Positions 863 through 64,000 of a DNA stretch of 64,000 nt are shown one piece after another (within the stretch, counting starts at the first letter, position 1; each line of letters starts with the position of its first letter). This DNA is from Norana najaformis. Lineage: Eukaryota > Annelida > Clitellata > Crassiclitellata > Hormogastridae. Position numbers and translations under genes: made by a program. Location of the stretch: the NCBI GenBank assembly GCA_964023275.1, contig OZ029913.1:46131976-46195975 (forward strand), in the 5' to 3' direction. The notes beneath the pieces are model-generated. The model made no database searches, was not told the origin of the DNA, and saw nothing but the letters and a program-made list of their open reading frames with translations.

Positions 863-925
863 GTAAAAAAACTTTTAATTATTTTTTGTTCCTGTGCAGC
901 AAGCGTAATTTCCTAATTGTTTATA

Positions 926-979
926 CCTCAAAAGTATAGAAAATGGCTACTATTCCCCGTAAACTTTGCTTTTGTGACC
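926..979 (+). repeat. Left terminal inverted repeat of the element at 863-3780
   Basis: Matches the reverse complement of 3671-3724 with a few mismatches; the outer part of the repeat (about 880-925 against 3725-3768) is more diverged. Confidence 0.75.
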
Positions 980-1065
980 TGCAGGACAGTGAAATTATAA
1001 AATTTAACTACTTTACAGAACATTCCAGATGAATTCAGTGTTGAGTAAACTTGGAGTAACTGCTA

Positions 1066-1128
1066 GAACTTTCTAGAAGTTTCGAGAATATTCTAGAACG
1101 ACAGAGAACCTTCTGGAACTGTCCAGAA
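1066..1128 (+). promoter_or_regulatory. Heat-shock element array of 13 phased units
   Basis: HSF-type sites are alternating GAA and TTC triplets every 5 bp. Here GAA starts at 1066, 1076, 1086, 1096, 1106, 1116 and 1126, and TTC at 1071, 1081, 1091 and 1111. Only the slots at 1101 (aca) and 1121 (gtc) deviate, so 11 of 13 units are perfect and the first seven are uninterrupted. A TATA-like box follows at once (1129-1136) and the gene relic starts about 80 bp further on. This is far longer than the three units that define a functional site, so a heat-inducible promoter is a strong inference. Confidence 0.85.
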
Positions 1129-1136
1129 ATATAAAT
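1129..1136 (+). promoter_or_regulatory. TATA box of the transposase-like gene relic
   Basis: 'atataaat' directly follows the heat-shock array and is about 80 bp upstream of the first in-family codons. A transcription start near 1155-1175 would fit. Confidence 0.6.
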
Positions 1137-1417
1137 TACAGTGTAAATACAGTGGCCTTAAGCCCACCAGTTCAGTTTAATTGTAGCTGCCTAAGTTGAT
1201 ATATATCTGAAATGGCATCTGAAGGCTGCAAGCATCTGCAGACGCATTTTGCTATGTATGCAGCCAATTTATCAAGACAAGAGCGAAAAAGTACTCCGTG
1301 GAAGCATCTGCTAAGATGTGTGAAACTTACAAGGCATATTTCGGCATTCCTGTTGGGGATCAAGACAAACCCTGGGCACCTCATTTCACCTGCGAGCACT
1401 GAAATAAACACTCAAGG

Positions 1418-1636
1418 GTAAGATGGACAATTGATACTTGCTCAGATGGCGAAATTTTATGTTATAAAAGTTTTAAAAGTTTTAAATGTTGTAATTTCAC
1501 AATTTTTTGAAAATTTTCAAAGTTATTGAACAAATATATGATATATGAAATATGTTGCGAAAATGTCTTACACATTAGTCATGGGAGAAATACATTTATT
1601 TTGTTATGATCACAATTTAATTTTGTTCTTTTGCAG
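1418..1636 (+). other. Spliceosomal intron in the transposase-like relic
   Basis: Begins GTAAG and ends TTTTGCAG after a T-rich tract. Joining 1417 to 1637 restores the family pattern of a cysteine region followed by W-Y-R-E-E-K-R-A-M. AT-rich, no stops shared with an exon reading. Confidence 0.65.
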
Positions 1637-2588
1637 GATGGTACAGAGAAGAAAAGAGAGCTATGAAGTTTGCTATCTCAAGAATTTGGCGAGAACCCAC
1701 TGACCACTCAAGCAATTGCTACTTCGGCATGGTGGATCCTTCAAAACGTCGGAATGGCAAGAATGCACCTTCTTTCAGACATTGTCTTGGTGCCACACTG
1801 CCCTGAGTTTCCTATACCCACTCCTCTGAAAGCAATCGTCCAGAAGAGAGCAGTAAGTCATAGAGCAAGGAAGACATTGGAGCTCCAGATTACAATTTCC
1901 GAGATGAGGAGAGAAACCCATACTATCCCAATCAAAAAGACCTCAACAACTTGATCAGAAATCTTGGTCTCACCAAGTCCAATGCCGAGCTTTTGACGTC
2001 TAGGCTCAAGCAGTGGAATTTGTTGGATGAAAGTGTGTAATCGCAGATCAGTGTCATCAAGCTTTTCCAGCTTCTTCACCAGTCAAGATGGGCTCTGCGT
2101 CAAGTGGGAGCCACTGGTGAACCTCAGAAGGTGCTGATGCCACCACTGCACATGAAATTGGGGCTCATGAAACAATTTGTCACAGTTCTAGATAAGGAGC
2201 CGCCAGCCTTCAAGTACCTTCAAGACTTCTTCCCTAAGCCGTCTGAGCAAAGGTCGAAGCCGATGTCTTCGTCGGACCACAGATAAAGAAGATCCTGGAG
2301 TGCAAAGTATTCCCCAAGAAGCACAATAGGAAGGAGAAAGCGGCTTGGAGCAGTTTTGTCGCAGTTGTTAGGGACTTCCTGGGCAATCACAAAGCCGAAA
2401 ACTATATGGAGCTGGTTGAGACTCTGATGAAGAACTACAGCAAAATGGGCTAAAGAATGCCCCTCAAAGTTTATATCCTTGATGCTCATCTTGATAGATT
2501 CAAGGGGAACATGGGAGCGTACTCGAAGGAGCAAGGCGAGCGCTTCCACCAGGATACACTGGACTTTGAACATCGCTGGCAAGGACAG

Positions 2589-3430
2589 TGTAATGTTTTA
2601 TAGACCGTTGCCACGAAACGTATTGTATAGAAAGACGTTTGGCAGTCAATATGAAACACTAGTTAGTGATCAGTCTAAAACATTTGTTGGTGGCTAGCGG
2701 TGATACTGGCGTCTCTTCGGGGTTTTCTTCGGCGTCTTGGATCGTTAACGAAGATTGTTCAGTTTATGCTTTTTATTTCTAACAACGAATCTATGTACAA
2801 CCTATTTACAGGGTCAAGATGTTCTTAGACATACTGCAGTTTCACTCTCTTGCTGCTAACGCACTTTCGCCTGTTTCAGCCAAGAGAGGCTTCCTCTTCG
2901 CACGTCGCTGAGAGTGAACCCCGACTCGCTTGTCCGCTTCCTTTTTATTCTTTCTTCCTGCTCCACGCGGCAGACTTCAATCGCATTCCTTCTCCCCTTC
3001 CATACCTCGCAGCATTATCACCCTGTGTTCTGCTGGCGCCAGACTTCAATCGCCCTTCCATCTACCCTCTTCCATCGCTGCATCATCATGGCTCGCATTT
3101 CAGTGCTCTGCTGTCTATCTCGCTGATCGCACTCCTTCCAGTCCCCTCGCTTGCACGCGTTGCACTTTGGAGCCGTGCTTTGCCACGTCTTCGTATCTGT
3201 GTGCCTTTGCCTCCTTCCCTCTGCCTGTTCTCTCTGTCGTTCTTTCGTCTTTGCATCAGTCATGCTTGATTGTTTCTGCCCTTTATCTATAGCTAATTTG
3301 ATTATAAATTGCCCTTTATCTATAGCTAATTTGATTAGGCCTATAAACTACAGTTAATTAATTGTTTTTATATTATATGTCCTCCATTTATGGCCGTCTT
3401 TCGCATCATCGTCTCCTCGGTTCCATTACA
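2589..3430. mobile_element. Solo LTR, 842 bp
   Basis: Starts TGTAATG and ends CATTACA, a perfect 7-bp inverted terminus of TG…CA type, flanked by the 5-bp duplication GACAG (2584-2588 and 3431-3435). Removing it together with one duplication rejoins the host gene relic in frame (W-Q-G-Q-Y-N-D-N). No gag or pol is present, so it is a solo LTR of a Ty3/gypsy- or BEL-type element. A complementary AATAAA near 2770 hints at minus orientation. It contains two copies of a 27-bp direct repeat (3278-3304, 3312-3338). Confidence 0.8.
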
Positions 3431-3670
3431 GACAGTATAACGATAACACGATGGGAGACTACATTCTGGGGCTGATTCGTGAAAGTGATTTACAGTATAA
3501 TCGAAAAACCACTCACTTCTAAATCTGTTGTGGTCATTTTTGTATAACTGTTACGAAAATACTTGTTTATATTGATTCATATGTTGTTTTCTGACTTTAT
3601 TTGCTCGAAAACACGCAAATTCGCCCGTTTCTTCATTGAAAATAGGTAAATTTCGAAATATCATTGTCCT

Positions 3671-3724
3671 GGTCACAAAAGCAAAGTTTGAAGGGAATAA
3701 CAGCCATTTTCTGTACTTTTGAGG
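3671..3724 (-). repeat. Right terminal inverted repeat of the element at 863-3780
   Basis: Reverse complement of the left repeat. Together the pair brackets the pseudogene and the solo LTR and marks the insertion as a DNA-transposon-like unit. Confidence 0.75.
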
Positions 3725-3780
3725 CTTAAGCAAGTAAGAAATGGCACTTACTACCGAGGCACAAAAATCGTGTTACTTAG

Positions 3781-9063: not shown

Positions 9064-9620
9064 ACGGGTAATCCAAAGAGAATCGTCGACAGACACAGAC
9101 GACGAGTAGGCCTAATCCAATGAGAATCGTCGACAGACACAGACGACGTGTAATATAATCCAATGAGAATCGTCGACAGACACAGACGACGTGTAATCCA
9201 ATGAGAATCGTCGACAGACACAGACGACGTGTAATCCAATGAGAATCGTCGACAGACACAGACGACGTGTAATCCAATGAGAATCGTCGACAGACACAGA
9301 CGACGTGTAATCCAAAGAGAATCGTCGACAGACACAGACGACGCAGACGACGAGTAATCCAATGAGAATCGTCGATAGACACAGACGACGCAGACAACGA
9401 GTAATCCAATGAGAATCGTCGACAGACACAGACGACGCAGACGACGAGTAATCCAATGAGAATCGTCGACAGACACAGACGACGCAGACGACGAGTAATC
9501 CAATGAGAATCGTCGACAGACACAGACGACGTGTAATCCAATGAGAATCGTCGACAGATACAGACGACGACGTAGACGACGACGACGACGACGAGTAATC
9601 CAATGAGAATCGTCGATACT
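9064..9620 (-). repeat. Tandem array inside the LTR, unit about 36 bp
   Basis: About 13-14 copies of a unit with core 'aatccaatgagaatcgtc' then 'gacagacacagacgac'. Some copies are lengthened to about 48 bp by an extra 'gcagacgacga'. The overlapping long open frames here are by-products of the repeat, not genes. Confidence 0.9.
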
Positions 9621-9999: not shown

Positions 10000-11254
10000 A
10001 TTCGCTTTGACACGTCGTCAAACAGCGTCTCTTCAAAAGTTTTACAGAGATCAGTTAACCCCCCAGGAACTGCGTTTAGAAGTTAGTGCAGCATCTAATT
10101 GAGGATCTGTTGGATGATGCTTTTGGAATTTGGTTTTCGCTTAACAGCGACCGTCGGTTGAGGCTTTGTGCATTATGATGCATTTAACTTGTGTTAAAGA
10201 AGCCTCCAGATTAGATGAGATATTTTAACCCTGTTAAGCAATGCTTGTACGAGAGGTTATTGCTTTTACTCACCTGTTCTTAACAACCTGTTCTTCTCAG
10301 TGCGCCGCAATTTTCTATTATTGCGTTGACTGCCAACTTAAGTGGGAACATGGGTTTAATGAATCGTATGGGACTATGCCACGTCAGCATGGCGGATTAT
10401 AGCCTACATGACGATTTTATAAAGGACTAATCTGATATGACAGAACAGATTTTAAAATTGAACATTGGTTGATGTCACCGAGCAGACAATGGTAATGGAC
10501 GGTTGGCAATGGTCATGCGCAGATCAGCGATGACAGTTGGCCGCCACTGGAGAACCAAACGACTTTTACAGTATAAGAGGAGGTTTCCTGAGTTCAGTCA
10601 GGAGATACCCTCGTTGGTGCATGTTGGTATAGACGTGAAGAAACATTTGCTCGTGTGTGTTAGCGTGTGTTTGAGGTCGAACTTTCCTTAACTTCGATCA
10701 TCATTCGTGTAAGAAGTTTCCTTAGTGTGTAGGAACTTCGAAAGAAACTGGGATTTACCTGTTTTCGGAAGCGGCGATAGTCGTATCGAACTGTGATTGT
10801 ATCGACGGAACTTTTCGTTCGATAATGTTAAGCGAACTGCAACACGCAATCGCGCTTTGACGAAAACAGAGTGTACGAAAGCCTCGTTTGTCTCGTCGTT
10901 CAGTAGTTTGGAGCGCGCTGAAATAACTACGAATTTTCGGGTAATAAAGTCGGAAAGTTTCAAGAAAAATGGCGAATATCCATCGTCTGCTTACGGATGC
11001 CTGTTCTCAACGTTTGCCTGGAGATGGACTTTGGTAAAACGCACTTCTTCGAGAACGATACCTCGAGATCAACGATTCTTCACAAGGACTGAAGCCTGGA
11101 AAGTCAAGAGTTCATCGGCGGGAGGGAAGAAATTAAATCAGCCTACCTCTTTAATTGACTTAGCAAGCTTAGTAGTTGGCTTGTAGTAGTTGTAGAATGA
11201 GGTAGTTATAGAATATTAGTTTAATCGAACTGAACATACTATCTTGATTAATAG
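10000..11254. other. Unassigned flank of the intact inverted-repeat element
   Basis: A 129-codon open frame at 10797-11186 (+) is rich in Ser, Thr, Lys and Arg, matches no family I know, and has no visible splice or promoter context. The remainder shows nothing recognisable. Confidence 0.35.
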
Positions 11255-11363
11255 CACTGGTCAACATAGAAATCGTTACTGACTGGAAAAGGCCCTAATG
11301 TGTAGCATCTTGGTGTGCTGAACACGAATATAACCATAAAAAATTTTTATTGGCTCTCGTTTT
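11255..11363 (+). repeat. Left terminal inverted repeat
   Basis: Imperfect; best-conserved blocks are the outer 12 bp, 11314-11331 and 11349-11363. Pairs with 13489-13607. Confidence 0.75.
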
Positions 11364-11508
11364 GAAAATATTTCATATAGTTCATTTTTTATGTTTCACC
11401 ATGTAAATTTATGCAGTAGGACTGCGACAATATCCTAAATAAGTCTAGAATGATGTAATATTCCACCTCATTGCATAATCCCATCATGGACACATCATGC
11501 ACAGTTGA

Positions 11509-11572
11509 TTACGTCATTTTCTGATGCAATGTAAAACTACAGCCAGTCGGCTGCTGACGTAAGATGACGTCA
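11509..11572 (+). promoter_or_regulatory. CRE/ATF-type site cluster
   Basis: Four bZIP-type sites in 64 bp: TTACGTCA (11509-11516), TGATGCAAT (11522-11530, form of a C/EBP-ATF composite element), TGACGTAA (11555-11562) and the perfect palindromic CRE TGACGTCA (11565-11572). The last two sit in a larger palindrome, ctgctgacgt / acgtcagcag (11551-11576). The TATA box is 10 bp downstream. In animals such sites bind CREB/ATF factors; stress- or cAMP-responsive control is inferred. Confidence 0.7.
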
Positions 11573-11581
11573 GCAGTGTAC

Positions 11582-11590
11582 TATATAAAG
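11582..11590 (+). promoter_or_regulatory. TATA box of the 563-codon gene
   Basis: 'tatataaag', 123 bp upstream of the start codon; predicted transcription start about 11612, giving a 5' leader of about 90 nt. Confidence 0.7.
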
Positions 11591-11704
11591 CGAGTCGGAA
11601 CGGTTGAGCATTTACAATATTACAGACTTTGTGCGAGACAGTTTAAGTTACTGTTTTATAAAACTATTATTACTTTATCCATTTAGATACAATACAGAAC
11701 AGTA

Positions 11705-13396
11705 ATGCCTCGGAAGTGCGTAAATACTGTGGACAACTTTTGTTACATTTGTGGGGAAGTGACATTTGCCAACCAGAAGAAAAGTATCACTTATCAAGTC
11801 AAGAAGGCATATCATGCTTACTTCGAATGCAAGGTTGGTGACCAAGACAAGCCATGGGCCCCGCATATATGCTGTGCTACATGTACAACACAGCTTTCAC
11901 AGTGGTTGAATGGCAAAAGACCATCAATGCCGTTTGCAGTTCCCATGGTGTGGAGAGAGCAAAGCAACCACGTAGATGACTGTTACTTCTGCTTGGTTCC
12001 TCCTCTTTCCGGTGGAATAACGAAGCAAAAGAAGTCGACAATAGTCTACCCAAACATTCCGTCAGCATTGAGACCAGTTCCACATGGTGATGGACTTCCT
12101 ATTCCAGAACCTCCAGCAGAATATATTTTCCTTGATTCATCTGATGAGGACAAGGGTGAGCCGACATGTTCTTCTCCTGGTCCGTCAGCGTGCAGTGATC
12201 CCGATTTTCACTGTGGTGCATCATCAACCCCACACAGAATAACACAGGAAGAACTAAATGACCTTGTTCGTGATTTGGACTTATCCAAAAACAAGGCAGA
12301 ATTGCTAGGATCAAGACTCCAACAATGGAATCTTCTAGAAGAAGATGTCACAATTACTTCATATAGAAAGCGCCATCAGCAGTTGGAACCTTTCTTTATG
12401 AAGGAAGGTAATCTGGTATTCTGTTCCAATATTGACGACCTCATGAATGCCTTACAGATCACTCATGACCCACAAGAATGGAGACTCTTTGTAGACTCTT
12501 CAACACTGAGTCTTAAGGCTGTGCTTTTGCACAATGGAAATCGTCTTCCATCTATTCCATTAGCGCATGCTGTCCACATGAAAGAGACATACGATAACCT
12601 AAAACAGCTACTGCATTCCATTGACTATAACAGGTACAAATGGCACCTGTGTGGTGATTTGAAGGTAGTTGCCATTTTAATGGGACTGCAGCAAGGATAT
12701 ACAAAATATATGTGTTTCTTGTGTGAGTGGGATAGCCGAGCAAGAGAGTTGCACTACGTGCGGAAGGAATGGACTCCCAGACAAAACATGGCAGTTGGAC
12801 AGAAGAATATCCAGCACCCAGCTCTGGTCGAGGCTCACAAAATCCTACTACCACCCCTTCACATCAAACTAGGTTTGGTGAAGAACTTCGTGAAAGCCAT
12901 GGACCGCACTTCGCCAGCTTTCCGATACCTGCATGAAAAATTCCCTCGACTCAGCGAAGCAAAGATTAAAGAGGGAGTTTTTGTGGGTCCTCAGATTAGA
13001 GAACTCTTCAAAGATGACCGCTTCAACAACTTGCTGGAGGGTGATGCGAAACAAGCATGGAATGGTTTTCGTCTAGTGTCTACAGACTTTCTGGGGAATG
13101 TTAGGGCAGAAAACTACAAGGAACTAGTAGAAGACATGCTCAAGCAGTACCAGAAATTTCGCTGCAATATGTCTCTGAAGATGCATTTCTTTCATTCCCA
13201 TCTGGATTTCTTCCCTGACAACTGTGGTATGGTTAGTGACGAACATGGCGAACGTTTTCATCAAGATATCGCAACAATGGAGCAAAGGTACCAGGAAAAA
13301 TGGTCTACTACAATGTTGGCTGACTACTGCTGGACACTCCGCAGAGATGCTCCCGAACAGCTGTACAAGAGACAGGCAAAAAAATCTAAGAACTAG
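11705..13396 (+). CDS. Uncharacterised protein, candidate DDE transposase (563 aa)
   Basis: Intact single-exon gene. Residues 1-100 are cysteine-rich (C13-x2-C16, C42, C57-x2-C60, C93-x2-C96), a plausible zinc-binding region. An acidic low-complexity linker (about 140-180) precedes the core. In the core, FVDSS (D264) is followed by SLKAVLLHNGN, then CGDLK (D318) with a CFLCEWDSR knuckle (C337, C340), then HSHLDFF and SDEHGERFHQ (E513/E516). The order D…D…E with β-strand-like surroundings fits an RNase-H-fold transposase, but I infer this from spacing and have no structural proof. The protein belongs to a widespread animal family that I recall only as uncharacterised. Its position inside inverted repeats, and a second copy at 863-3780, support mobility. 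The start is the first ATG after the TATA box. Confidence 0.7.
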   Translation: MPRKCVNTVDNFCYICGEVTFANQKKSITYQVKKAYHAYFECKVGDQDKPWAPHICCATCTTQLSQWLNGKRPSMPFAVPMVWREQSNHVDDCYFCLVPPLSGGITKQKKSTIVYPNIPSALRPVPHGDGLPIPEPPAEYIFLDSSDEDKGEPTCSSPGPSACSDPDFHCGASSTPHRITQEELNDLVRDLDLSKNKAELLGSRLQQWNLLEEDVTITSYRKRHQQLEPFFMKEGNLVFCSNIDDLMNALQITHDPQEWRLFVDSSTLSLKAVLLHNGNRLPSIPLAHAVHMKETYDNLKQLLHSIDYNRYKWHLCGDLKVVAILMGLQQGYTKYMCFLCEWDSRARELHYVRKEWTPRQNMAVGQKNIQHPALVEAHKILLPPLHIKLGLVKNFVKAMDRTSPAFRYLHEKFPRLSEAKIKEGVFVGPQIRELFKDDRFNNLLEGDAKQAWNGFRLVSTDFLGNVRAENYKELVEDMLKQYQKFRCNMSLKMHFFHSHLDFFPDNCGMVSDEHGERFHQDIATMEQRYQEKWSTTMLADYCWTLRRDAPEQLYKRQAKKSKN

Positions 13397-13488
13397 TCTA
13401 TGACCTGGTTTTTACAAATATTAACTGTAAGTGTATCACTATTGGCATGCATTGTGCGATATAAAATTACTTCATTTCAGATTACAAA

Positions 13489-13607
13489 AAAACTAGAGCC
13501 AATTCGGCATTTTCACTGTCATATTCGTGTTCAGCACATACAAATTGATAAGAACTGACTAATTTCATTTCAGTAACATGACTTTTGTAAAAATTTGTTG
13601 TCCAGTG
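13489..13607 (-). repeat. Right terminal inverted repeat
   Basis: Reverse complement of 11255-11363 with several small insertions, so it is slightly longer (119 against 109 bp). Confidence 0.75.
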
Positions 13608-13859
13608 TAGTTTATTTCAATAATAAAACAATATTAAACTTTACAGTGAGTTTGAACAAGCCATCATTTCATCAAGATCAAGTTCATCATTTGAGATTGA
13701 TAAGATAAGACTTGGGATAGATGTATCTTGACAAAAATCTTTAGTCATTTGCATGTACCTTTTCCCAAGGACTTATAATTGTAAGAGAGGTCATGCCCTC
13801 TAGGGATTTTGAGTTAAGTTACAATCTGGCACAAAGGTAGAGATTTCAAAGGGTACAAC

Positions 13860-24674: not shown

Positions 24675-25718
24675 CAGTGCTGGCCATAAGTTTGGAATCA
24701 CTTAGAAATGTATGAAATTTTCTTATAAAAAGCCTCAGAAGAAATTGTAACTGTAATTTTTCTCAATGAAACTGTAACAGTTTATTCAAAACTCACATAC
24801 TAAGTAAATGGATAGTCAAATGTCAACTTCAGATGCTGACTTTGAGTGCTGTCCTTTGTTAGCCAGGACAGCCTTGAGTCTTGCTGGCATGGAATTCACA
24901 AGACTTTCACAATAAGCTGGGCTGATGTGGTTGACCCAGACTCGCTTTATGGCGTCAACCAACGATACCTTTGATGTTGGATGCTCCTCAGACACCTTCT
25001 GCTTCATAAACATCCACAGGTTTTCGATGGGATTGAGGTCGGGACTGGATCCAGGCCAAGGACCCAAGATATGAATTCCCCGTCTATTGATCCATCTTGT
25101 CACAGTCCTTGCCCGGTGGCAAGGAGCTCCATCATGTTGGAAAGTGGTGCAATTGAGGATCCCCATGTGTGTTTCTAGTTTATCCTCAAGGATTGATTGG
25201 TATACCTGACCATTTATGGTCGTGTTTGGAGGCATGAACCAAATTCCTCCTCGGCCGCTACCGCTGAAGCTGCCCCAGACCATCGTCGTCGGCGCCTGCC
25301 TGACAGTCGGCACGACGTAGCGGATGTTGTAACGCTGGTTAGCAGGTCGACGGACATAGCGGCAGGCCGAGTAAAACTGTGTGAACGTCGATTCGTCAGA
25401 GAACATCACCTTCATCCAGTCTGCCTTCGTCCAGTTCTTGTATTTCGCGCAGAAAGCCAAACGATCCTTTATGTTCTTCTTGCTCAGTTTGGCTTTCTTT
25501 GCAGGTTTCCTGGATGGCAGTTCGAAATCCACAAGCAGCCGTCTTCTGACAGTCCTTGCACTCACAGGTGGCCTCCCCCGAGTCCTTGCACTCACAGGTG
25601 ACCTCACCGCTGCTCTGATTTGGGACGAGGACCAGGTTGGGTGAGCCATAGCTATAGCGATCAAATATGGTTTTCAACAGATTGTGCCTGGGTGATTCCA
25701 AACTTATGGCCAGCACTG
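24675..25718 (-). mobile_element. Tc1-like element, 1044 bp
   Basis: Inverted repeats of about 27 bp (CAGTGCTGGCCATAAGTTTG…) at 24675-24701 and 25692-25718, flanked by the TA duplication typical of Tc1/mariner (24673-24674, 25719-25720). It holds one long transposase frame on the minus strand. It is shorter than the usual 1.3-1.6 kb because the transposase N-terminus is missing. It sits in an intron of the RASA1-like gene. Confidence 0.93.
24816..25649 (-). CDS. Tc1-like transposase, N-terminally truncated (277 aa)
   Basis: From the first ATG (25649) the frame encodes the full DDE catalytic domain. VMFSDES holds the first Asp, FQHDGAPCHRAR the second, and PGSSPDLNPIENLW the Glu, with 35 residues between the second Asp and the Glu (Tc1 proper has 34). 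Family transposases are about 340 residues with two N-terminal helix-turn-helix domains; here the paired HTH region is mostly gone, and the left part holds a short internal repeat (SPVSARTRGRPPVSARTVRR). No stop or frameshift interrupts it, so decay is recent, but without its DNA-binding domain it is probably not autonomous. Confidence 0.85.
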   Translation of the reverse strand: MAHPTWSSSQIRAAVRSPVSARTRGRPPVSARTVRRRLLVDFELPSRKPAKKAKLSKKNIKDRLAFCAKYKNWTKADWMKVMFSDESTFTQFYSACRYVRRPANQRYNIRYVVPTVRQAPTTMVWGSFSGSGRGGIWFMPPNTTINGQVYQSILEDKLETHMGILNCTTFQHDGAPCHRARTVTRWINRRGIHILGPWPGSSPDLNPIENLWMFMKQKVSEEHPTSKVSLVDAIKRVWVNHISPAYCESLVNSMPARLKAVLANKGQHSKSASEVDI

Positions 25719-28769: not shown

Positions 28770-30350
28770 TAGGTCCATTTATTTATTTATTTAAAGCACT
28801 TGTGACACACGCAATGTCAGTAAACCTGAACCTGAGGCGCGGATGTATATTTGCTAGGGGCCAATATGGAGTCATGCAAAAGCCAGGGTGAAGTAGTGAG
28901 TCTTAACAAGTGATTTACAAGATAATAGGGAGTTTGCAAGACGGGTTTGGTAGACGATTCCAAATGCGAGGAGCACAACAGTTAAAGGCATGTGATCCTA
29001 CAACTGTCCTGAACCTAGATTCTTGCAACAAACCAGTATCAGAAGAACCCAAGAATCTGGGAGGGCGATATGGAGTCAGCAAAGATATGATGGAAGGCCA
29101 GTGTTCTGAGCCTTAAAAGTCAAGCATGCAATTTTTAACTTAATACGCTACTCAACAGGAAGCAAGTGAAGTTCATGAAGGTGCTCTAATGCATTTGATG
29201 AAGAACATGTAACAATCCTAGAAAGAGAGTTTTGAACCCTTTGGAGCTTTTTCACATTAAAAGAGGATATACCGTATAACACCACATTTGCATAGTCTAA
29301 TCGGGAACTAACAAGTGCACATGCCACTGTTTTAGCCATGTCATTAGTCAGAGAATGTCTGATGTGACAAAATGCCTTGATATGGTAGAAACAAGACCTA
29401 CAAATCGAAGATACGTGTGAAGTCATAGCAAGCGACTTATCAAGGGTGACACCGAGAGTTTTGATTTTGTCTGATAATGGGATTTTGGTTCCTGCAAGGT
29501 CAATAGAAGAATGCGAAGTGAAAGACTGTATATGCTGGTGATTTGTGAAAAGAACTTCCTCTGACTTATCTGGATTGATTGCAAGATCATTAAAGCAGAA
29601 CCAAGTGTGAAGAGAAGAAAAACAATGTTCAAGTTCAGTTTTAGCTGAGGAATCTGTTGCAGAAAGAGCAACGCAGAGTTGACTATCATCAGCACATTGC
29701 TGGACCAATGTGTTATGCATGCATGCAATTTGACAAATGGGCGAAATAAAAATAGAAAATAGGAGAGGTCCAAGGACAGAACCCTGAGGTACACCTGAAC
29801 AACAGGCAATAGGGTCAGAGCAAGATGAGTTTATTGCCACTTGGTGAGAACGATCATTGAGATAAGAAGATATCCAGTGAAGAGAAGGACCAGTAATTCC
29901 AAAAGATGTGTAGAGTCAAGACAGCAGAATACCATGATCTACAGTATCAAATGAAGCACTCAAATCAAATCAAGAATATATATAAAAAAGAAGAGATGCT
30001 TTGCCACAATCCACTGAATTAAATATATTGTTAAGTGTGCCAGTAAGAGAATGATGTTTACAATAAGCCGACTGCAAAGGACTAAAATTTGGAGAAGATG
30101 TTACACGCCTCTGAAAATGTATGAGAAATAGACATTCAAGCAGTTTGGAGATATTATTCAGATTGGAAAAAGGCCTATAATTAGCCAGACAGTCCTTATC
30201 AAGATCAGGTTTTTTTAGTAGGGGTGTTACAAGAGCAGTTTTAAAAGCAGAGGGGAAGCGACCTTCACAAAAGGAGAGATTAGCCAGGTGAGCAATGAGG
30301 ATAGAAAACACTATACCTACAAAAGGTCTATACCTTTGCACAAACACCAT
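28770..30350 (-). mobile_element. CR1/L2-like retrotransposon, long decayed copy
   Basis: Minus strand, in order: ANLSFCEGRFPSAFKTALVT, PLLKKPDLDKD and NYRPFSNLNNISKLLE (about 30320-30130), then after a frameshift the frame at 29148-29840 with CCSGVPQGSVLGPLLF, QCADDSQLC (a variant of YADD), GVTLDKSLAMTSHVSSICR and KKLQRVQNSLSRIV. The C-terminal block (APRIWNRLPNPS) is at about 28960-28900, and the 3' tail is (aaat)n at 28776-28792. The same family gives the truncated copy at 56140-56730. It lies in the RASA1-like intron in the same orientation as the gene. Confidence 0.85.
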
Positions 30351-60525: not shown

Positions 60526-61363
60526 ATGAGCTTTGAGAGTTGCGACTTGCAGAACAGTGTGGCTTATGCGCAGAAATTTCAAAAGTTCTTTGAATAAGTT
60601 ATATTTAGTAAAGATCACCAACAAATAAAGTAAATATTGATCTACTGCACAAGGCCACAAAAATAAACTGTATGCCTGTTTCTATATGAAGTAATTTAAG
60701 AAAGACTAATAAATAAGATACAACTCATAATGATAAGACACCTGATTACTATATTTCTATATAACTGCCTGCTTATCTATTTGAAAAACTTACAGATGCA
60801 CAGTCTGTAAAACCGAATGAGGAATGGAAGAATGTCTGCTAGGGAGCCAATACCCTTACTAAAATATGAATAACAGTGGTTTCCTATAGCACCTATTTAA
60901 CAGGTACACAACATCAGGTAATTTGATACAATTTTAAGGAATGGTTCCCGAGAATGGAATCATGCGGAAACTGAAAAAGCTCATTGCCCGTGTCTTCTTG
61001 TGATATCAGATTAACAGTTTTCCAGTGTGTGTATGTATATAATAAATAAATAAATATATATGTATGTACAAAGTATATACATGCATAATTTTTAATGAAG
61101 CCTATATATATTATATAAATTGCTGTAGAGTTATATAGTATATACATATGATATAATATTAAAACCAAGAAAGACGCAGAATTCAAATCAGATATGCAGC
61201 CAGAAATAGGCAATTGAACTTTTGGGTAATATGTCAATCAATACTTCAATACTTAGACAAGTGCTTGGGGTGCTGACTTTGTTTGCTACAGCCAATAAAC
61301 TATTTTTGAGGTGCAGGCTGGTAGAAAACTTATAAACTTTGGGCCACTGACCAACATGTTTAT
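60526..61363. other. Unassigned AT-rich region before the satellite
   Basis: A minus-strand frame near 60920-61010 (EDTGNELFQFPHDSILGNHS) looks protein-like, but it has no family and no clear splice sites. Simple TA-rich repeats at 61030-61160. Confidence 0.3.
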
Positions 61364-64000
61364 AACAGGGATCTGACTCCAAATACACATTTGAAAAGGT
61401 TCCTAATGGACTTGCTGGCTCTGATCACTGCTAAAATAACAGGGATCTGACTCCAAATACACATTTGAAAAGGTTTTTAATGGACTTGCTGGCTCTGATC
61501 ACTGCTAAAATAACAGGGATCTGACTCCAAATACACATTTGAAAAGGTTCCTAATGGACTTGCTGGCTCTGATCACTGCTAAAATAACAGGGATCTGACT
61601 CCAAATACACATTTGAAAAGGTTCCTAATGGACTTGCTGGCTCTGATCACTGCTAAAATAACAGGGATCTGACTCCAAATACACATTTGAAAAGGTTCCT
61701 AATGGACTTGCTGGCTCTGATCACTGCTAAAATAACAGGGATCTGACTCCAAATACACATTTGAAAAGGTTCCTAATGGACTTGCTGGCTCTGATCACTG
61801 CTAAAATAACAGGGATCTGACTCCAAATACACATTTGAAAAGGTTCCTAATGGACTTGCTGGCTCTGATCACTGCTAAAATAACTGGGATCTGACTCCAA
61901 ATACACATTTGAAAGGTTCTTAATGGACTTGCTGGCTCTGATCACTGCTAAAATAACAGGGATCTGACTCCAAATACACATTTGAAAGGTTGTTAATGGA
62001 CTTGCTGGCTCTGATCACTGCTAAAATAACTGGGATCTGACTCCAAATACACATTTGAAAGGTTGTTAATGGACTTGCTGGCTCTGATCACTGCTAAAAT
62101 AACAGGGATCTGACTCCAAATACACATTTGAAAGGTTCTTAATGGACTTGCTGGCTCTGATCACTGCTAAAATAACAGGGATCTGACTCCAAATACACAT
62201 TTGAAAAGGTTCCTAATGGACTTGCTGGCTCTGATCACTGCTAAAATAACAGGGATCTGACTCCAAATACACATTTGAAAAGGTTCCTAATGGACTTGCT
62301 GGCTCTGATCACTGCTAAAATAACAGGGATCTGACTCCAAATACACATTTGAAAAGGTTCCTAATGGACTTGCTGGCTCTGATCACTGCTAAAATAACAG
62401 GGATCTGACTCCAAATACACATTTGAAAAGGTTCCTAATGGACTTGCTGGCTCTGATCACTGCTAAAATAACAGGGATCTGACTCCAAATACACATTTGA
62501 AAAGGTTCTTAATGGACTTGCTGGCTCTGATCACTGCTAAAATAACAGGGATCTGACTCCAAATACACATTTGAAAGGTTCTTAATGGACTTGCTGGCTC
62601 TGATCACTGCTAAAATAACAGGGATCTGACTCCAAATACACATTTGAAAAGGTTTTTAATGGACTTGCTGGCTCTGATCACTGCTAAAATAACAGGGATC
62701 TGACTCCAAATACACATTTGAAAAGGTTCCTAATGGACTTGCTGGCTCTGATCACTGCTAAAATAACAGGGATCTGACTCCAAATACACATTTGAAAAGG
62801 TTCCTAATGGACTTGCTGGCTCTGATCACTGCTAAAATAACAGGGATCTGACTCCAAATACACATTTGAAAAGGTTTTTAATGGACTTGCTGGCTCTGAT
62901 CACTGCTAAAATAACAGGGATCTGACTCCAAATACACATTTGAAAAGGTTTTTAATGGACTTGCTGGCTCTGATCACTGCTAAAATAACAGGGATCTGAC
63001 TCCAAATACACATTTGAAAAGGTTTTTAATGGACTTGCTGGCTCTGATCACTGCTAAAATAACAGGGATCTGACTCCAAATACACATTTGAAAAGGTTCC
63101 TAATGGACTTGCTGGCTCTGATCACTGCTAAAATAACAGGGATCTGACTCCAAATACACATTTGAAAAGGTTCTTAATGGACTTGCTGGCTCTGATCACT
63201 GCTAAAATAACTGGGATCTGACTTCAAATACACATTTGAAAGGTTCTTAATGGACTTGCTGGCTCTGATCACTGCTAAAATAACAGGGATCTGACTCCAA
63301 ATACACATTTGAAAGGTTGTTAATGGACTTGCTGGCTCTGATCACTGCTAAAATAACTGGGATCTGACTCCAAATACACATTTGAAAGGTTGTTAATGGA
63401 CTTGCTGGCTCTGATCACTGCTAAAATAACAGGGATCTGACTCCAAATACACATTTGAAAGGTTCTTAATGGACTTGCTGGCTCTGATCACTGCTAAAAT
63501 AACAGGGATCTGACTCCAAATACACATTTGAAAAGGTTCCTAATGGACTTGCTGGCTCTGATCACTGCTAAAATAACAGGGATCTGACTCCAAATACACA
63601 TTTGAAAAGGTTCTTAATGGACTTGCTGGCTCTGATCACTGCTAAAATAACAGGGATCTGACTCCAAATACACATTTGAAAAGGTTTTTAATGGACTTGC
63701 TGGCTCTGATCACTGCTAAAATAACAGGGATCTGACTCCAAATACACATTTGAAAAGGTTTTTAATGGACTTGCTGGCTCTGATCACTGCTAAAATAACA
63801 GGGATCTGACTCCAAATACACATTTGAAAAGGTTCCTAATGGACTTGCTGGCTCTGATCACTGCTAAAATAACAGGGATCTGACTCCAAGTACACATTTG
63901 AAAAGGTTTTTAATGGACTTGCTGGCTCTGATCACTGCTAAAATAACAGGGATCTGACTCCAAATACACATTTGAAAAGGTTTTTAATGGACTTGCTGGC
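61364..64000. repeat. 74-bp satellite array, about 36 copies, open at the window end
   Basis: Unit 'aacagggatctgactccaaa' … 'ggacttgctggctctgatca' … 'ctgctaaaat', 74 bp, or 73 bp where one A is lost from 'gaaaagg'. Copies differ mainly at a 3-base variable spot after 'aagg' (ttcc, tttt, ttct, ttgt) and at a/t in 'aac(a/t)ggg'; otherwise they are nearly identical. The array continues beyond 64000. The unit is not a multiple of 3 and encodes nothing. Confidence 0.97.

Follow-up and report, generated by a model that had tools for sequence, protein, structure and literature searches.

The Chapaev transposons are recognised by CAC..GTG ends, by target duplications of 3-4 bp and by three protein motifs, C(2)C, LH and H(4)H; in the Chapaev3 group TWA is duplicated between A and T and the genes are mostly single-exon (passages of PMC4079192). 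In the same passages the Merrow and Garfield genes have two exons, and Garfield_BM is 2289 bp long and encodes 556 aa. Chapaev3, credited to Kapitonov and Jurka 2008 (cited in a passage of PMC4411706), is described as a sublineage of Chapaev in parts of PMC12730594, where EnSpm, Mirage, Chapaev, Transib and RAG1 are united by common zinc motifs. The Chapa zinc domain of Chapaev3 is common to the RAG1 N-terminus (PMC4411706, in part), and Chapaev is treated as equivalent to DUF1280 in a passage of PMC3985635. Here a 2353-bp element at 11255-13607 of a 64,000-nt stretch from Norana najaformis (contig OZ029913.1) is compared with these systems; the window is this whole stretch and all coordinates count from its first letter. 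The element carries one gene for a 563-aa protein. Its predicted fold, motifs, termini, size and architecture point to Chapaev3 as published, and it is placed there as a full-length cut-and-paste DNA transposon with a probability of about 0.85, and its membership of the wider Chapaev-Transib-RAG1 ('CMCT') clade is close to certain. A preliminary description of the stretch had proposed a DNA transposon that is self-contained, is flanked by a 3-bp repeat and encodes a predicted aspartate-aspartate-glutamate (DDE) transposase, all of which is supported.

The transposase and its relatives

The 563 codons of the gene are free of stops, as first reported, and the protein and element are close in length to Garfield_BM, with a similarly Cys-rich N-terminus. 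The gene is one open frame in contrast to the two exons of Garfield and Merrow, and no second open reading frame of at least 150 aa was found within the element. The Chapaev motifs C(2)C, LH and H(4)H together with DDE are kept in 182, 180, 180 and 179 of 182 proteins respectively, and the N-terminal set C13, C16, C57, C60, H89, C93 and C96 in 171 of the 182, a further nine being gapped. The Cys pairs and ordered acidic residues singled out earlier (C13/C16, C57/C60, C93/C96, D264, D318, E513 and E516) lie where they had been placed and are invariant in 70 aligned proteins. The RNase-H-fold transposase that had been proposed is in keeping with the predicted structure, in which an RNase-H core is present, and RAG1 and Transib top both structure comparisons, with Foldseek TM-scores below 0.5.

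The undescribed or unassigned superfamily to which the element had been ascribed gives way to the described Chapaev3 group on fold, motifs, termini, size and architecture. The near-invariance of the Chapaev motif set in the 182 proteins and the lead of RAG1 and Transib in both structure comparisons make it very improbable that the superfamily of this DDE transposon is undescribed, even with no meaningful sequence match for the window protein in Pfam (best E 0.19) or in the PDB (best E 2, nothing relevant) and a single stray match (E 0.071) in NCBIfam for four proteins. A FYVE-domain chain (E 0.12, profile positions 4-46), the best match of one PDB profile search, was judged irrelevant, and the PDB searches by sequence detected no match to the Transib/RAG1-like proteins HzTransib, BbRAGL and RAG1. 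Sub-threshold matches to RAG1_imp_bd occurred in 3 of 62 relatives.

The best 120 of 1992 relatives include sequences from the frog Ranitomeya variabilis, the beetle Pyrocoelia pectoralis and the moth Mythimna loreyi, and most of the 120 lie on contigs of at most about 2-3 kb. Scans of viral contigs, for which both the protein and alignment A1 served as queries, found no relatives, nor did scans of genome contigs with alignment A1 or of plasmids and phages, and the viral structure library gave nothing at E<=0.001. No open-licence paper containing the motif ERFHQD was found.

An alternative is a distinct and as yet unnamed lineage that is sister to Chapaev3 within the Chapaev-Transib-RAG1 clade and has its own target preference but the same mechanism. 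This would account for the TAG duplication in place of TWA, for the lack of any named Chapaev3 among the best 120 of 1992 relatives or the best 120 of 2385 relatives of protein P0114, and for the absence of DUF1280 (PF06918) from the families listed for the relatives (25 of 30 listed, 70 relatives; 25 of 28 listed, 62 relatives). The window protein likewise has no DUF1280 match. The absence of DUF1280 from the families listed in these 132 relative scans is consistent with a wide separation of Chapaev3 from the other Chapaevs, without proving it. Chapaev3 as described accommodates the element in size, in its single-exon gene, in the CAC..GTG ends with their A/T flanks and in all three Chapaev motifs, and the candidate TTA duplication (by eye) of the decayed relative described below is a TWA. 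Such a sister lineage is considered unlikely. Confidence in the Chapaev3 placement is slightly lowered by the low TM-scores and by Transib entries that tie with the P element. The duplication is arranged as A-TAG..TAG-T, in which the last base of TWA is replaced by G at the one copy seen.

Ends of the element and a decayed relative

The features of the element and its relative are collected below.

Table 1. Coordinates of features at the candidate Chapaev3 locus
Feature	Position	Strand	Remark
Decayed relative, another subfamily	878..3772	+	candidate duplication TTA 875-877/3773-3775 (by eye)
Left target-site duplication TAG	11252..11254	.	base before is A
Left terminal inverted repeat CACTGGTCAACA	11255..11266	+	
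Inner repeated octamer GTTACTGA	11275..11282	+	inverted partner at 13570
Subterminal inverted repeat, left arm	11314..11363	+	first 18 nt identical to partner
Three CRE/ATF-like sites, putative promoter elements	11509..11572	+	TTACGTCA 11509, TGACGTAA 11555, TGACGTCA 11565
TATA box-like TATATAAA	11582..11589	+	
Transposase gene (563 aa), intact in one open frame	11705..13396	+	residues 1-141 zinc-finger region; 176-558 predicted RAG1/Transib-like catalytic core
Subterminal inverted repeat, right arm	13489..13538	-	
Right terminal inverted repeat TGTTGTCCAGTG	13596..13607	-	reverse complement CACTGGACAACA
Right target-site duplication TAG	13608..13610	.	base after is T

The repeats recognised at the outset were all recovered. 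The outer 12-mers are identical at 11 of 12 positions and give the element CAC..GTG termini like those of Garfield, Merrow, Conan and the Repbase Chapaev3-x entries, with which it also shares the C(2)C/LH/H(4)H and DDE motifs and a 3-bp duplication between A and T, the flanking TAG/TAG being seen at one insertion. The two inner blocks consist of the octamer, of which the window holds two further copies, and of 50-nt subterminal arms that are 78% complementary, whose first 18 nt occur nowhere else in the window. This 18-bp repeat was absent from viral contigs; eight bacterial matches in genome contigs were taken as chance.

The 600 bp preceding the open reading frame and the 500 bp following it were resampled 2000 times under a first-order Markov model. 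In 63 of these resamples a matching 3-bp flank accompanied a 12-bp inverted repeat that had one mismatch or none, such that this combination is not rare on its own; with CAC at both ends, a post hoc condition derived from the literature, it arose in none. A domesticated transposase serving as a host gene, with repeats flanking it by chance, would be expected to keep an intact frame and conserved catalytic and zinc residues as seen here, yet the CAC-ended repeats with matching flanks (0/2000), the 50-nt inner inverted repeat, the decayed relative 8 kb away and the repeat-like short contigs that hold most of the best 120 of 1992 relatives make this scarcely credible. The element has probably been active recently.

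The decayed copy reported earlier as bracketed by inverted repeats at 863-3780 is indeed related, and its bounds are revised, by eye, to the likely ones in Table 1. Four tblastn pieces with stops are 31-47% identical to the protein and lie across 1235-2582; a fifth (E 0.35) was dropped. A separate C-terminal piece lies at about 3433-3513. The copy lacks residues about 216-348, a segment that includes the CxxC and both catalytic Asp. Its arms at 883-979 and 3671-3767 are 97 nt long and 80% complementary, and the first five bases of its 5′ end have lost their match to the 3′ end. The candidate TTA duplication is a TWA but lacks the A..T flanks. Some 850 bp at about 2588-3433 interrupt this copy and match none of the family proteins compared, and no inverted repeat of at least 11 nt was found in 2560-3480.

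Target duplications in Transib and RAG1 are 5 bp long and EnSpm elements are usually larger. The element differs from the Transib/RAG1-like systems (HzTransib, BbRAGL, RAG1) in its 3-bp duplication, in the lack of a second open reading frame of at least 150 aa and in the absence of a Pfam RING match in the window protein. EnSpm/CACTA and Mirage resemble it in CAC..GTG ends and CMC zinc motifs (passages of PMC12730594) but differ in that their Pfam models, PF02992 and PF06869, are not among the families listed for its relatives.

Expression, proposed transposition and window context

The TATA box suggested as driving the gene is present on the + strand; it is one of 13 copies of TATATAAA in the window, and its promoter role is putative. 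TKACGTMA sites, which we take to be of CREB/ATF (CRE) type, occur at five positions in the window, three of them just upstream of this TATA-like sequence, which suggests that the transposase gene may be expressed via host CREB/ATF-type factors. The cluster at 11509-11589 lies partly inside a palindrome, CTGCTGACGT..ACGTCAGCAG. The first AATAAA 3′ of the gene is at 13622, in the flank and 15 bp past the element end, with no AATAAA or ATTAAA between the stop codon and the element end.

In the proposed mechanism, a promoter with the TATA box and CREB/ATF-like sites would drive the single gene, and the transposase would bind the 12-bp ends and subterminal repeats before pairing both ends. By analogy with its structural kin Transib and RAG1, nicking would occur at the CAC ends, with hairpins formed on the flanking DNA via D264, D318 and E513 (or E516), residues predicted to surround a C337/C340/H494/H499 zinc site. 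The excised element would then be joined to its target at positions staggered by 3 bp, which would produce TAG/TAG.

Elsewhere in the window, an intact-looking 277-codon Tc1/mariner-type transposase open reading frame lies at 24816-25649 (-; Pfam DDE_3 4.4e-13, HTH_Tnp_Tc3_2), and a satellite array of about 36 copies of a 74-bp unit (98% matches) extends from 61362 to 64000 and runs off the window end. A tandem array of 38/47-bp units at 9064-9582 contains two long overlapping open reading frames on the - strand that are probably not genes. Near-identical sequence around CCAGTG at 29098 and 56470 is probably an interspersed repeat; the open reading frame 29148-29720, near the former, appears by eye to be a reverse-transcriptase fragment, without a Pfam match at 1e-3. 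An Rfam scan of the window gave nothing.

The ZAD-like N-terminus and its implications

The Cys-rich N-terminal region is predicted to be a zinc domain of the Chapa type whose fold is ZAD-like and which probably acts in dimerisation and/or DNA binding. The ZAD (zf-AD) is the defining domain of a large family of insect C2H2 zinc-finger regulators. The N-terminal region appears to resemble it in predicted fold, with 66 aligned residues in the range 8 to 140, and resembles it in the four-Cys pattern; it differs in being followed by a transposase core in place of C2H2 fingers and in sequence matches that fall under the Pfam cut-off. The window protein had no Pfam zf-AD match, P0114 reached 19 bits against a cut-off of 28, and sub-threshold matches (E up to 10) occurred in 23 of 131 distinct relatives. 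No open-licence paper pairing ZAD with Chapaev was found, nor any title on a common origin among the related papers listed, and the passages of PMC10547256 dealing with ZAD mention none. Shared ancestry of the insect ZAD with the Chapaev3-type N-terminal zinc domain, which is present in RAG1 as the Chapa domain, is tentatively put forward as a possibility that is somewhat doubtful at present.

With this placement the new superfamily that had been claimed gives way to a described group, which gains a candidate member whose single gene is intact and whose TAG duplication is unusual. The biology of Chapaev was described in 2014 as largely uncharacterised (PMC4079192, in part), and an intact copy of a transposase with a predicted RAG1 fold is therefore a useful candidate for biochemistry. 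If homologous, the ZAD-like N-terminus would connect insect gene regulators with the transposase kin of RAG1, such that the dimerisation domain of insect ZAD regulators would derive from a lineage of transposons related to the one behind V(D)J recombination.
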